From positions 1-49,826 of the forward strand of contig CALXPY010000005.1 in the NCBI GenBank assembly GCA_944390395.1: DNA of 49,826 nucleotides, read 5' to 3'. Position numbers and translations under genes: made by a program. A model generated the notes under the pieces. The model did no database searches. It had not been told where the DNA came from and worked only from the letters and a program-made list of their open reading frames with translations. Position 1 is the first letter of the stretch; each line of letters starts with the position of its first letter. This DNA comes from an uncultured Clostridia bacterium (GTDB lineage Bacteria; Bacillota; Clostridia; TANB77; CAG-508). Shown here in pieces: positions 43,587 to 49,826 of this stretch.

Positions 43587-45398
43587 TTAACAAAATATTT
43601 CTTTATTTTTTAATTGATCTATTACATTATCTCTTTGTTTTAAACGTAGTGTTTTTATATAAGGTAAATAGAAATCATCATCATTATCTACATAGTCTTC
43701 CTCTGATATACCATAATGATTTATTAAAATTTTTTCTCTATCCTTAAAACTTTCATTAATGCATACAGTTATATTATCGTCAAACAATAAATTTATATAA
43801 TGCATTGCTTTATCGTGATTTTTTAATTTTTCCATTGCTGCCGCATAATAATATACTGCTTTTACCATTATTTTTTCTACATCATTTTCTCCCAAATTTT
43901 CAATGAAGAAAGTTAAATCTTCCAAAATCTCAGATGCTTTTTTATATTCCTCATTCATTATATAACAAATTGCCAAAAAATATTTAGCTCCCATTCCTAT
44001 TTTTTCACAAGGTAAAACTTCCATATTTCTTAAGCTTAATAATATACTAATTTTTTCATATCCCACTTCTTTTACTATTGTTTCCATTATCTTTGTTACT
44101 TCATCTATATTACTTAAGTTTATATTGTTAAAATCCATTAATAGTTTCTGCATTGTAGAGAATTTATTAAATCTACTTGCATCTGGATCAAATGTTACTT
44201 CACTCATACCAGGTATTATAATGCTATATGATGGAAAACCAAATACTGAAACATCTCTTATTAAAATATCAAAACCATCATTTATTATACTATTAACTAA
44301 TCTCTTTAAAATTTGTTTATTATTTAATTCTGAAATATCTTCTATAGAAGTAAAGTCATATTTTGGCTTTTCTCCTATAAGTTGATAAGGCATCGTAGAT
44401 AAATCAGAAAATAAAAAGTCTATCATGTTAGAATTTTTGTCTACCTTTTCGTCATCAAAGTCAAACATACATGTTTGTGAATATTCATAAATATCACGGC
44501 CTTGAGCTGCTTCTGTAAAGCATCTTTCCATTGCTATGCCATAATCTGGATGAGCTCCTAATTTAAATCCAAATTTCCCTGTATTTTTTTGAATTATATA
44601 TAAACCTGCGACAGGATATTTGCCTCCAAAAGTACAATCTATTAATTTGAAAATATATTCTTCATCATTTGCAAATTTATCCATCATTTTCTTTACTTTT
44701 GGATATTTTTCTAAATATGAATTTGGTATTTCTGGTAGAGTTACTTTTTCCTTAAATATTTTTAAAGCTACATACCTTTCTAAAATTTCTGATAACCCTT
44801 CAATCAATGCTTCTTCTGGTGAATTACCTGCACACATTCCATTTGTATCATATAAATAGCTATTAAGTTTATAAGGTATGTGAACCAATTTCTTTGATTT
44901 TACACTATAATATGGTAACACTAAATGTTCCTTTTCCGGTTCTATTATATTAGAGGTTTCATTAAGTATTTTTTGTAATAATTTTACTTTTTCATTATCT
45001 GTTGCATTTGCAATATTGTTTCTAGCTATTATATTATTAAAAAAGGCATTATCTTCTTTTTCTAATTCTTCTGCATTCATATTTTTTTCGTCTGGTGCTG
45101 CCATAAAAGGTATTTTTTTAGTAGGCTTCTCTATTCTAAATTTTAATATTCCATTTTGATATCTTTCAAAGAATTCCGAGTATGCACTTGCTGCTGCAAA
45201 CTCCTTTGTCATTCCCTTTCCATTTTGCCCTATATTTGTCCCCTTAATACATAATCTTAAAGAATAAGTTCCTGCACTACTTTTTTCTCTCCATTGTTCT
45301 TCAACTTCGATATTATTTTCTTCTAATATTCTTTTCAATCTTGCTACAGTTTCTTCTGGTTTAACTTCTTTATATCTCATTTCTTGTAATTTACTCAT
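43587..45398 (-). CDS. YcaO family protein (E. coli YcaO-like) with C-terminal helical repeats
   Basis: About 603 residues from ATG 45398 behind GTAGGAGGG; the frame runs further upstream without support. The YcaO domain (about 45-410) has TNIGQNGKGMTKEFAAASAYSEF split over the first ATP-binding stretch, GNSPEEALIEGLSEILERYV and GAHPDYGIAMERCFTEAAQGR. A TPR-like helical region (about 440-600) follows. The type is that of E. coli YcaO, which helps RimO methylthiolate ribosomal protein S12, rather than azoline-forming RiPP enzymes. No precursor peptide or partner is next to it. Confidence 0.82.
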   Translation of the reverse strand: MSKLQEMRYKEVKPEETVARLKRILEENNIEVEEQWREKSSAGTYSLRLCIKGTNIGQNGKGMTKEFAAASAYSEFFERYQNGILKFRIEKPTKKIPFMAAPDEKNMNAEELEKEDNAFFNNIIARNNIANATDNEKVKLLQKILNETSNIIEPEKEHLVLPYYSVKSKKLVHIPYKLNSYLYDTNGMCAGNSPEEALIEGLSEILERYVALKIFKEKVTLPEIPNSYLEKYPKVKKMMDKFANDEEYIFKLIDCTFGGKYPVAGLYIIQKNTGKFGFKLGAHPDYGIAMERCFTEAAQGRDIYEYSQTCMFDFDDEKVDKNSNMIDFLFSDLSTMPYQLIGEKPKYDFTSIEDISELNNKQILKRLVNSIINDGFDILIRDVSVFGFPSYSIIIPGMSEVTFDPDASRFNKFSTMQKLLMDFNNINLSNIDEVTKIMETIVKEVGYEKISILLSLRNMEVLPCEKIGMGAKYFLAICYIMNEEYKKASEILEDLTFFIENLGENDVEKIMVKAVYYYAAAMEKLKNHDKAMHYINLLFDDNITVCINESFKDREKILINHYGISEEDYVDNDDDFYLPYIKTLRLKQRDNVIDQLKNKEIFC

Positions 45399-45487
45399 AT
45401 AATTCCCTCCTACATTTTTCGACAAAATTATATCATTTTCTACTTTATTTTTTTGTTTTTTATATGAAAAGCTTATTTTATTATACG

Positions 45488-45516
45488 AAAAAAGAAGAGT
45501 GCCCCCCTTCTTTTTT
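45488..45516 (-). terminator. Terminator after mutL
   Basis: AAAAAAGAAG pairs with CTTCTTTTTT around a small loop with a C run, followed by T residues on the minus strand; 17 bases after the mutL stop codon. Confidence 0.8.
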
Positions 45517-45532
45517 ATGTCATGAATATCCA

Positions 45533-47227
45533 TTATGTCTTTAGCTCTTCTTTGGTAAATTTTATAGTTGTGGGTCTCCCGTGTGGGCATGTAAATGGAT
45601 TATTTAGTATCAACAAATTTTGTATTAAATAATCTACTTCTTGTATACTTAAATCCATATTTGCTTTAACTGCAGCCTTACATGCCACTGTTGCTAGAAA
45701 CCTTTCTTCTATATCCTTATTAAATCCTCTTTCTCCTGTCATCATTTCATCTAAGATATCTAAAAAAATTCTTTTAGTACTTGTTTTATAATCTAACTCT
45801 GGTATTCCATTTATCTTTATAGAATTATCTCCAAATATTTCTAGATCAAATCCTATTTTTTGAAATACTTGCATATATTTTTGAGTAAATTCCATTTCTT
45901 TATGAGATAAGTTTACTACTTCTGGGATTAACAATAATTGTGAATTATTTTTTACATTATTTTTATAATTTTCTTTTATTTGCTCATATAATATTCTTTC
46001 ATGAGCTGCATGTTGATCTATAAAATAAAGTTCATCCCCTATTTCTATAATTATATAAGTTCTAAATAATATTCCAATATATTTATATTCTATTTTTCTT
46101 TTTTCTGCTCTTTCTATTGTATTCTTTTGGATTTGTTGATTTTCTTCTTGGTTATTTACAAAATGGTTTGTTAAAAAGTTTAACTCTTTATCAACATACG
46201 GGGTTAAAGAAGTTCCTTTTTCTTCGTTTCCTAAAAATTTATTATTTAGCATAGAGTTTTTTATTGCATGATATATTATTCTATACATATTAACATCTTC
46301 TTTAAATCTTACTTCCATTTTAGTTGGATGTACATTAACATCATATAACTCTGGAGACATTTCTATATTTAATATAAAAAATCCATATTTTCCTATTCCA
46401 GTTGCTCCTTTGAATGCTTGATCTGCACTATTAGATATTACCTTATTTTTTATAAATCTTTTATTTAGAAATATTATTTGATTTCTTCTATCTTCTCTAG
46501 CAATTAATGTATTTCCAATTACTCCTGTTATTTTTATATTGTCTTCCACATAATCTATATTTACAATATTCTCTTCAATTTCTTTTCCATATAGTAAATA
46601 TATTATATCTTCAATTTTTCCATTTCCATTAGTTTTGTATATTACCTTATCATCGTTTACTAATTGGATAGAAATTTTTTCATTAGCCAATGAAATCTTT
46701 TCAACAATATCCTTAATGTACCTAAATTCAGTTCCGTCTTGTTTTAAGAATTTAAATCTAACAGGGATATTAAAAAAAAGATTTTCTACAATAATTGTAG
46801 TTCCCGTTTTAGTCCCACTTTCTTCTACTTCTATAATCTTTCCTGCTTCATTAACTAATTTCCTTCCAATCATCTCTTCATCAGTTTTTGAAATCATTGT
46901 CACTTTAGATATAGAAGCTATACTAGCTAAAGCTTCTCCTCTAAAACCCATTGAGTATATTTTATTTAAATCTTCAATTTTTCTTATTTTACTAGTTGCA
47001 TGTCTTTCAAAAGCCAATTCCATATCATCATTAGAAATTCCTTTTCCATTATCAGTTACTCTTATATATGTTTTTCCTCCATTTTTTATTTCTATAATTA
47101 TTTTATCAGCTCCTGCATCTATTGAATTTTCCACTAATTCTTTTACAACATTTGCTGGTCTCTCAATAACTTCTCCTGCTGCTATTTGATTTATTGTTAA
47201 TTCGTCTAATAATACTATTTTTCCCAT
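45533..47227 (-). CDS. mutL: DNA mismatch repair protein MutL (endonuclease-type)
   Basis: 564 residues. GHKL ATPase domain with LTINQIAAGEVIERPANVVKEL split over its first helices, VTDNGKGI, GFRGEALASI and a transducer with DVNVHPTKMEVRF. The C-terminal endonuclease domain keeps DQHAAHERILYE (the DQHA-X2-E-X4-E metal site), ACKAAVKA and CPHGRPT, so it should nick DNA like other MutL proteins without MutH. mutS is not adjacent. Its promoter is shared back-to-back with a tetR gene and carries a matching operator at the expected transcription start. Confidence 0.95.
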   Translation of the reverse strand: MGKIVLLDELTINQIAAGEVIERPANVVKELVENSIDAGADKIIIEIKNGGKTYIRVTDNGKGISNDDMELAFERHATSKIRKIEDLNKIYSMGFRGEALASIASISKVTMISKTDEEMIGRKLVNEAGKIIEVEESGTKTGTTIIVENLFFNIPVRFKFLKQDGTEFRYIKDIVEKISLANEKISIQLVNDDKVIYKTNGNGKIEDIIYLLYGKEIEENIVNIDYVEDNIKITGVIGNTLIAREDRRNQIIFLNKRFIKNKVISNSADQAFKGATGIGKYGFFILNIEMSPELYDVNVHPTKMEVRFKEDVNMYRIIYHAIKNSMLNNKFLGNEEKGTSLTPYVDKELNFLTNHFVNNQEENQQIQKNTIERAEKRKIEYKYIGILFRTYIIIEIGDELYFIDQHAAHERILYEQIKENYKNNVKNNSQLLLIPEVVNLSHKEMEFTQKYMQVFQKIGFDLEIFGDNSIKINGIPELDYKTSTKRIFLDILDEMMTGERGFNKDIEERFLATVACKAAVKANMDLSIQEVDYLIQNLLILNNPFTCPHGRPTTIKFTKEELKT

Positions 47228-48036: not shown

Positions 48037-48629
48037 CTAAGTATAAATATGGTTTTGTTTTAAATTTTTTCGTGACATTTTTTCCATTATATCAGCTAAA
48101 AATTGCATTGAAAAATTTGTTTTAGCGTCTCTATAAACTGGAGATAAAATACCTATAATATGTACAAATTCCTCTGCTATTTCTTTGTTTTTAAATCCAA
48201 GCTCTTCTATTCCATCTTCATTTTTTTGTATTTCTATATTTTTATAAATTTTTTCAACTTGTTTTAAATCCCATAATTTTTTTCTTACACCTAATCCATT
48301 TGATAAAGTATATTCTAGTCTATCAGCAGATAATTGTGGTGTGTCATTATCTGCAATCGGATATATATGGTAGTTACACACTTCATCAATTGATATATTG
48401 TCTCTTTTTAATAAGCCCATTATCTCTTTTGATTCACTTATAATCTTTCTTGTTAATTCTTCTGTAGATTCTTGTTTATCATAATCTTTATTCATATAAT
48501 CAATGCAATGTTTAAATACAGGTGTAGAAATATCATGAAATAATCCAGCTAAAGTTTGTTTTTTATCCTTTGTAAAATTCCAAAATATTTCTTAATTGTT
48601 TCATCTAAATTTTTAAAATAATTATTCAT
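48037..48629 (-). pseudogene. HD-domain phosphohydrolase-like gene with internal out-of-frame deletion
   Basis: The open frame 48037-48495 encodes only the C-terminal part (NKDYDKQESTEELT onward). Upstream the same frame reads NFTKDKKQTLAGLFHDISTPVFKH with the HD doublet. A proper start (ATG 48629, GAGGT site) reads MNNYFKNLDETIKKYFGIL in a different frame and soon stops. The two pieces meet near 48575-48580. From memory of the family, a stretch of tens of codons carrying the first metal His is missing between them. The gene is dead as read, although an internal start could make the C-terminal fragment. Confidence 0.75.
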
Positions 48630-48759
48630 ATTTTACCTCATTTCTATGTATTCACACATTTCACTGTAAAACATTTTTAACTTTTTGTAACTCTTTCCTA
48701 AGATTATATACAAATAATAACTTTTATACAAGAGATTTTTTATTTTTTAATTACTTAAA

Positions 48760-48792: not shown

Positions 48793-48804
48793 CTTTTATC
48801 TTAA

Positions 48805-49140
48805 TTAACAATTACAATTGTTATTCATGTTCATACAATTCATATTATTATTCATATAAAATTTCTTTTCTGCTAATTTATCTTGTATTCCTCTTAATGC
48901 TTCTCCAAATCTTTGGAAGTGCACTATTTCTCTTTGTCTTAAGAAACGCAATGGATCTACTACATCTGGATCATCTTTACATAAATCTATTAATTTTTCA
49001 TAAGTAGCTCTTGCTTTTTGCTCTGCTGCTAAATCTTCTTGTAAGTTTGCAATTGGATCTCCTTTACATGCTAATACTGATGCTGAAAATGGAACTCCTG
49101 CTGCTGATTGTGGGTATACATCTACACCATGTGGTGTGTG
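48805..49140 (-). pseudogene. cotJC: CotJC / manganese-catalase-like spore coat protein, 5'-truncated
   Basis: The frame encodes 111 C-terminal residues: HTPHGVDVYPQSAAGVPFSA, KGDPIANLQEDLAAEQKARA, DPLRFLRQREIVHFQRFGEA with iron/manganese-ligand Glu and His, and an Asn/Cys-rich tail. The family is normally about 190-230 residues. Upstream of 49140 similarity ceases, an in-frame stop lies at 49177-49179, and no start or ribosome site is present. The 5' half has been lost, apparently where a non-coding, hairpin-rich segment begins. Confidence 0.8.
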
Positions 49141-49297
49141 TTTGTTATCTATCCTAAAATGGAAGTATATATGTAACTACTTATTTTGTACAAGAAATTT
49201 TGTGCCTACACTTTTTGTAGGTATTATTTATTACCTTACGATTTTATTCTGCTTAAAATTGATTGTAAGGGCAAATATAATTGAATATTTAATAGAG

Positions 49298-49331
49298 AAG
49301 ACATTTGTAATCTAAAAATTACAGATGTCTT
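49298..49331 (+). terminator. Hairpin with T-tract before the structured region
   Basis: AAGACATTTGTAAT pairs with ATTACAGATGTCTT (one mismatch) and is followed by a T run. It could be a terminator or the first stem of the structured region. Between 49141 and 49297 only two further small hairpins are seen (CCTACA/TGTAGG near 49206 and CCTTAC/GTAAGG near 49235-49270). Confidence 0.7.
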
Positions 49332-49378
49332 TTTTCTATGCAAGAGATATGCAGAACCTCTATAAAAGTTCTTGGTTT

Positions 49379-49811
49379 AGCAAGCCGATGCTATAAAGTT
49401 TGCTCGTATTCGTATAAACGGTCTATTTATACAAAATGCGTGAGTGAGATTTTAGAACACAAACTCACAATAATAAGAAAAGCTTCATTATGTGCAAGTT
49501 GCTTCGCAACTGCACGAATTAAGGAAGCTTAACCTTGTTACTACGGAATTTTTATCAAAATTCCTTCGTAATAAAAGAGTATTTGGTGGCAAAACTTGAA
49601 ATGGATTTGTAATTGTAAGAAAAACTCCAAATAAATTTTAACGGATGTTTTTCTTGTTACTTTTGAAATGCTATTGCATTTCAACGTAATAAAAAGTTTG
49701 GGCAAGTATGAACAAAGATACAAAGTAGTATCAGCAATTATAGTAGCATAGCTACTTACTAGACTACCTATGAAACGAGGCGAACGACCGACGGTTTCAA
49801 CATATATAGGT
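49379..49811 (+). ncRNA. Candidate large structured non-coding RNA (extends to or past window end)
   Basis: At least eight stems follow each other in about 430 bases without a gene. They are: 49379-49404 (7 bp, one G-U); 49405-49440 (6+7 bp, one G-U); 49441-49467; 49480-49530 (AAGCTTC/GAAGCTT enclosing GTGCA/TGCAC and GTTGC/GCAAC); 49537-49572; 49617-49655 (AAGAAAAAC/GTTTTTCTT); 49656-49690; 49742-49756; and 49766-49811 (ACCTAT/ATAGGT plus GAAAC/GTTTC). The G-U pairs favour the plus strand. Two stems are versions of one module with different inner helices. The class is unknown to me. Confidence 0.6.
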
Positions 49812-49826
49812 GTAATAATTCTATTT

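Follow-up and report, generated by a model that had tools for sequence, protein, structure and literature searches.

The right edge of the window (the whole stretch of 49,826 nucleotides that we analysed, from an uncultured Clostridia bacterium) carries one copy of a predicted RNA of ~400 to 560 bases that is intricately folded and previously uncatalogued. Our main reading, to which we assign a probability of roughly 0.55, is that this copy belongs to an undescribed family of large pseudoknotted noncoding RNAs that reside on mobile elements. The earlier note had described a candidate large, ornate plus-strand RNA at this edge, and homologues, compensatory changes and G-U asymmetry all support it. 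Alignment of the homologues shows that the family has retained its shape while its sequence diverged. The copy in the window spans positions 49342–49826 of the plus strand, where it was matched by nhmmer and a covariance model and placed in alignments. Since the window is a whole contig whose sequence stops at base 49826, inside the 3′ hairpin of the RNA, the segment cannot be extended in this genome. The 3′ end lies beyond the window, as the earlier note had anticipated: relatives have the complete 3′ hairpin and continue through it to a GGTTTC strand. Few new bacterial RNA families are this large and complex, and the majority of those already known have no assigned function.

Both the many hairpins seen at the right edge and the lack of a plausible gene there held up. 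Positions 49320–49826 folded with a minimum energy of −127.5 kcal/mol, far below the −99.1 ± 5.9 kcal/mol of dinucleotide shuffles (z = −4.8; 0 of 100 shuffles as low). As the minus strand of the segment folded nearly equally well (z = −4.9), energy alone cannot assign the strand and comparative evidence is needed. The only open reading frames (ORFs) of at least 60 amino acids in the segment were one at 49338–49532 (plus strand, 64 aa) and an open minus-strand frame of 94 aa, neither of them a plausible gene. ORFs of at least 70 aa overlapping the RNA were absent in most relatives and, where present, were scattered and unrelated; relatives with complete 3′ ends had no protein-coding gene over the segment. 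These ORF checks of the window and its relatives rule out protein coding on either strand. ARAGORN detected no tRNA or tmRNA in the window.

When 30 genomes of the genus were searched at the DNA level, 20 gave matches, many of them merely copies of a repeat that is inserted in the window's RNA. The window RNA appeared as pieces separated by gaps, with relatives lacking ~92 and ~68 bases, and an insert-free relative (L032) was used as the query for a family-wide search. With this query, the RNA was found in 79 of 292 genomes of the taxonomic family, about a quarter. An exact pattern recovered 72 stretches in genomes of named species, all uncultured gut Clostridia and relatives. Of 287 genomes sampled across the order, 60 had the RNA by the covariance model, including three from other families, and the class sample outside the order yielded no copy. 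Two weak matches of this model (46.6 bits), on contigs L205 and L206, constitute class 3. The family offers ~60 distinct copies in three sequence classes; many, like the window's, are truncated where a contig ends, as repeated sequences often are. Phage and plasmid records yielded nothing but a weak 38-base phage match, and viral contigs contained no match by pattern.

We aligned 67 full-length copies and, by combining a covariation ranking with reading by eye, derived twelve helices. All 12, two of which are long-range pseudoknots, are supported in an alignment of 32 relatives. In pseudoknot A, the helix 3 loop AGTCTA pairs with TAGACT, 170 bases further on; in pseudoknot B, ACTTG pairs with CAAGT in the loop of hairpin 5a. 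Standard pairs filled 94.2% of cells in the 32 relatives. Changes on both sides were found in 27 pairs, compared to 15.1 in shuffles and 6–9 with the partners slid, and in 131 cells, compared to 33 in shuffles, all of these statistics ignoring phylogeny. G-T cells (249) far outnumbered A-C cells (25), indicating that it is the plus strand that folds and ruling out a minus-strand RNA. RNAalifold gave −91.7 for the plus strand and −74.1 for the minus strand. Comparative folding of homologues, which had been suggested as a check, thus revealed stems that covary across relatives.

As these pair statistics are blind to phylogeny and were counted on the same sequences from which the structure was drawn by eye, we used the distant class 3 as a check. 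Class 3 has different sequences yet keeps helices 2–6, the three-way junction and both pseudoknots: GTTAGTA in the helix 3 loop pairs with TACTAAC, and AAGTTAA pairs with TTAACTT. For these pairs, which were searched by eye, the chance of such 7-base matches in search stretches of that size is ~0.002 and ~0.004, respectively.

The elements of this fold can be followed along the plus strand of the window copy. A hairpin and T run resembling an intrinsic terminator (49297–49336) lie directly 5′ of the RNA, which begins with a candidate 5′ pseudoknot (49344–49372) consisting of a GAG/CTC stem and a loop, AGAAC, complementary to GTTCT; the second strand pair is well kept in class 1 only. Helix 2 (49380–49403) is GCAA/TTGC here and ATGA/TCAT in most relatives, a compensatory change. 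The helix 3 hairpin (49405–49440) has the loop GGTCTA, which pairs with TAGACT at 49760–49765; this strand is paired in all 32 sequences, through A-U, G-U and G-C types. Helix 4 (49444–49468), GTGAG/CTCAC, is invariant in the 32 sequences and is GCAGG/CCTGC in class 3. The 5′ strand of pseudoknot B (ACTTG, 49594–49598) pairs with CAAGT at 49703–49707, within the helix 5 three-way junction (49606–49743) that encloses hairpins 5a and 5b. Helix 6 (49744–49754) follows. Helix 7 (CCTAT/ATAGG and GAAAC/GTTTC, 49767–49810) overlaps the start of the 3′ hairpin. That hairpin, homologous and complete in relatives, is represented here by its 5′ arm, AGGTGTAATAAT... (49808–49826), which the contig end cuts.

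Candidates for the mutually exclusive 3′ helices that a riboswitch or attenuator would have are helix 7 and the 3′ hairpin, which have bases in common in classes 1 and 2. The GGTTTC strand occurs twice per RNA, the second time past the 3′ hairpin, and in several lineages both copies change together: AGTTTC is present twice in L128, GGGTTC twice in L129 and GGGTTTA twice in L122. The repeated 3′ strand of class 3 is GTATTGTT, again present twice, and L083 has GGTTCC at the second GGTTTC position. The RNA also contains very conserved unpaired stretches, and similarity among copies stops near AAGAG on the 5′ side and near GGTTTC on the 3′ side. In three loci (L104, L032 and L138), a hairpin 3′ of the RNA, TGAAACCGAGCAAGGTTTCA, holds a third occurrence of the GGTTTC/GAAAC motif.

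The earlier note had singled out two modules with shared flanks and with inner stems that differ yet pair, and the sequences are exactly as it claimed: the inner stems GGAATTTT/AAAATTCC and GAAATGC/GCATTTC each lie between CTTGTTAC and CGTAATAAAA. Both modules also fold better than shuffles (z = −5.6 and −3.5). Its explanation, covariation within one molecule, was mistaken, as the modules are two inserts that are missing in relatives and the true covariation is that between homologues. Insert 1 (49477–49571, plus strand, after helix 4) and insert 2 (49619–49689, plus strand, within helix 5) interrupt A-rich linkers, with TAA on each side. The first is a two-hairpin member of a dispersed genus repeat with ~20 copies in genome G014. 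The second is an optional two-hairpin subdomain that other genera also have, in copies of both class 1 and class 2; its site is occupied alike in L090, L117, L240, L241, L242 and L243. The likeness of the two modules is that of a shared insert architecture. A third insert site, in the loop of hairpin 5b, holds a different two-hairpin insert in L110, L238 and L239, and L244 has another, different insert at site 1. The distinct copies, three classes and natural insertions provide ready-made structural controls. A dispersed repeat related to insert 1, with two or three hairpins, roughly 100–130 bases and the form TAA-GAAAAG...TACAA-TAA, occurs in L011, L013, L015, L016, L018, L019, L024, L028, L030 and other contigs.

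In gut Clostridia, the RNA copies reside on integrative mobilizable elements, conjugative elements and small plasmids. On integrative mobilizable elements, the usual place is just upstream of oriT and the Mob_Pre relaxase. Downstream of the RNA in class 1 come hairpins, a stretch that is oriT-like by its resemblance to MobV nick sites, and the Mob_Pre relaxase; the mob side is inherited along with the RNA. A complete element (L155) has a tyrosine integrase beside tRNA-Leu, other genes, Mob_Pre, the RNA and cargo. Variant loci have TnpV, MobC/NikA and a MobA-type relaxase downstream of the RNA. Class 2 copies lie away from oriT on conjugative elements with TraG/VirB4-like and coupling proteins; some close a transfer operon, opposite a convergent HTH gene. 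The class 3 plasmids L206 and L205 are circular (~4967 bp and ~4.5 kb, respectively) and encode Mob_Pre, the RNA and an HTH-like protein of 161–162 aa; neither of the two has a recognizable Rep. L206 has no exact terminal repeat, and its ~4967 bp circle is given by an internal exact repeat of 1419 bases. The RNA is common across an order of uncultured gut Clostridia. Its tie to DNA transfer modules makes its role directly testable by transfer, read-through and probing assays.

Genes on both sides of the RNA vary widely. The first ORF 3′ of the RNA belongs to the Mob_Pre cluster in 31 of 54 loci, with Mob_Pre further down in three more. As the neighbours vary between Mob_Pre, TnpV-MobC-relaxase and transfer genes, we rejected a fixed partner gene. 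A riboswitch or attenuator is expected to have a same-strand gene downstream in all copies; here, the RNA and the first ORF after it share a strand in 49 of 54 loci and lie on opposite strands in five, one of which has a truncated RNA. The four complete RNAs with an opposite-strand next gene are all in conjugative-element (class 2) loci. On the 5′ side, a terminator hairpin was found upstream in 62 of 63 copies, compared to 3.3% of control positions, with the T run ending a median of 8 nt before the RNA start. No conserved promoter was found between terminator and RNA. Cargo genes, among them AbiZ, AbiEi/AbiEii and a CBASS-type HNH effector, frequently occupy the position just upstream. Anti-phage defence genes lie directly 5′ of the RNA in L145 (10000–12154), L080 and L148 (10510–12123).

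A cmscan of all of Rfam 15 found no family at the gathering score on the window or on full-length relatives. Permissive Rfam searches of the window end and a full-length relative (E ≤ 10) and of class 3 (E ≤ 5) gave only chance-level matches, with ROOL, GOLLD and OLE absent among them. 6S-Flavo was rejected, as it scored 30.7 bits at 49457–49551, compared to a required 85 bits, mostly on insert 1, which is missing in relatives. ROOL and GOLLD are large ornate bacterial RNAs (PMC12286853). The resemblance to them that the earlier note had perceived is one of style only: like our family, both are large, intricate, noncoding and without known function. Membership in either class is not supported, as no Rfam 15 family reached threshold on the window, full-length relatives or class 3, and the Rfam large-RNA models, whose use had been proposed as a check, gave no ROOL, GOLLD or OLE match in the window or relatives. 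Our family also differs in its smaller core (~400 nt), its mobilizable, conjugative and plasmid carriers, and the lack of a meaningful match in phage or viral collections.

OLE, a large ornate RNA of low-GC Gram-positive bacteria, is similar in kind and hosts but has an Rfam model that our family does not match. ARRPOF RNA, from the replication region of a Fusobacterium plasmid, is likewise a plasmid-borne structured RNA near a possible replication region, but it had no Rfam match to the window, class 1 or class 3 at permissive thresholds. Group IIC introns lie directly behind intrinsic terminators, as our RNA does; unlike them, it has no domain V or Rfam match, and the loci that we read have no reverse transcriptase. 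A group II intron was rejected, as no Rfam model of domain V/VI or D1-D4 matched. Tn4451-type mobilizable transposons (tnpV and the Mob_Pre gene tnpZ) contain the same kinds of genes as surround the RNA (TnpV, Mob_Pre and oriT), although the L155 integrase, by comparison, is a tyrosine recombinase beside tRNA-Leu. We know of no RNA described in Tn4451-type transposons, and a search of open papers with a few terms found no description of the RNA family in such elements. From these sequence comparisons, the RNA appears to be a new family among large structured bacterial RNAs, one whose association with conjugative and mobilizable elements is unusual.

As to what the predicted RNA does, we tentatively favour control of read-through transcription into the transfer module as its most likely function. 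The module would act in cis as a transcription-control RNA. It would arise solely from polymerase that passes the terminator in front, and its fold would decide whether transcription proceeds into the module that follows, in most cases oriT with the relaxase gene. The decision may involve the 3′ region of the fold: helix 7 overlaps the 3′ hairpin there, and the single GAAAC strand could be contested by two identical GGTTTC strands. Several observations disfavour this model. A leader would not have the next gene on the opposite strand, as the four complete class 2 copies do. The Mob_Pre gene, where present, is separated from the RNA by oriT and additional hairpins, and it may be transcribed from a promoter of its own. 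Lying past the 3′ hairpin, the second GGTTTC can come into play only once that hairpin has formed, and it reads GGTTCC in one copy (L083).

An RNA that acts in trans or as an oligomer comes close to read-through control in likelihood, though it is doubtful in itself. Made by read-through of upstream operons, a stand-alone RNA would function in trans or as a scaffold or oligomer like GOLLD and ROOL, and its position on mobile elements would reflect its carrier, with no cis control. The widely varying neighbours on both sides are consistent with this, as are those class 2 copies that stand last in a transfer operon and face a convergent HTH gene, the very conserved unpaired stretches, and the repeated GGTTTC strand, which could serve intermolecular pairing. 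Against it are the lack of a promoter of its own and the same-strand downstream ORF in 49 of 54 loci. A broader proposal, which we consider rather unlikely, is that the RNA works as a large machine of a new class, devoted to conjugative and mobilizable elements: a module with optional plug-in subdomains that is exchanged among unrelated elements at the border of cargo and transfer genes. Cargo at this border has several times consisted of anti-phage defence genes. Such a machine may form multimers through its repeated 3′ strands, or may substitute for Rep in small plasmids.

Roles in single-stranded DNA, replication or intron-like mobility are less likely than the control and trans-acting or oligomeric readings. 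It is improbable that the fold is one of single-stranded DNA, taken up by the plus strand during transfer, for example as a single-strand origin or promoter near oriT. Most copies adjoin oriT and mob, G-T pairs are also tolerated in DNA, and the terminator in front could exclude transcription; however, in L206 the RNA-sense strand is opposite the mob-sense strand (presumably the transferred strand, given MobV biology), class 2 copies lie away from oriT, and two compensating long-range pseudoknots would be unusual for such origins. A Rep-less replicon, in which the RNA would serve as primer or regulator for copying the excised element or plasmid, in the manner of RNA II in ColE1, is still less probable. 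The two circular class 3 plasmids with Mob_Pre, RNA, HTH-like protein and no recognizable Rep fit this idea, but in L250, where the RNA is absent, a similar gene of the 88 aa type adjoins one for a distant HTH-protein homologue, integrated copies need no replicon, and the relaxase could drive rolling-circle replication. Finally, the constant 8-base spacing behind terminators in 62 of 63 copies and the similarity limits near AAGAG and GGTTTC would suit an intron-like mobile ribozyme that, in the manner of group IIC introns, targets sites behind terminators, but this is very improbable given no group I or II model match in Rfam, no linked reverse transcriptase or homing gene, and the joint inheritance of RNA and mob side in class 1.

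In the window, the RNA starts ~170 bases inside the end of an integrated mobile element (49174–49826, plus strand), immediately after the terminator, and the element runs off the contig. The element interrupts cotJC, whose C-terminal part (48803–49173, minus strand; in-frame translation ...NKHTPHGVDVYPQSAAGVPFSAS...) remains with its 5′ side cut off. The gene is named cotJC (spore-coat catalase-like) from its likeness to the CotJC sequence, rather than from a profile search. Many relatives have an intact cotJC of about 221–234 aa, with homology starting at query residues 10–12, and the identical junction beside cotJC was found in G009, G010 and, in another genus, G178. cotJC is a recurrent integration target in the genus: in addition to the cuts in the window, G009, G010 and G178, it is split by about 12 kb in G014 (contig 15) and by 7 kb in G007 (contig 45). 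This splitting recalls skin-like elements that are excised during sporulation. Elsewhere in the window, the minus-strand ORF 48037–48495 seems to be prolonged upstream (~48496–48640) in another frame with an HD-like motif, which suggests a frameshift, and a 667 aa ORF (43587–45590) that is YcaO-like by eye overlaps the end of a mutL-like gene (45533–47227).
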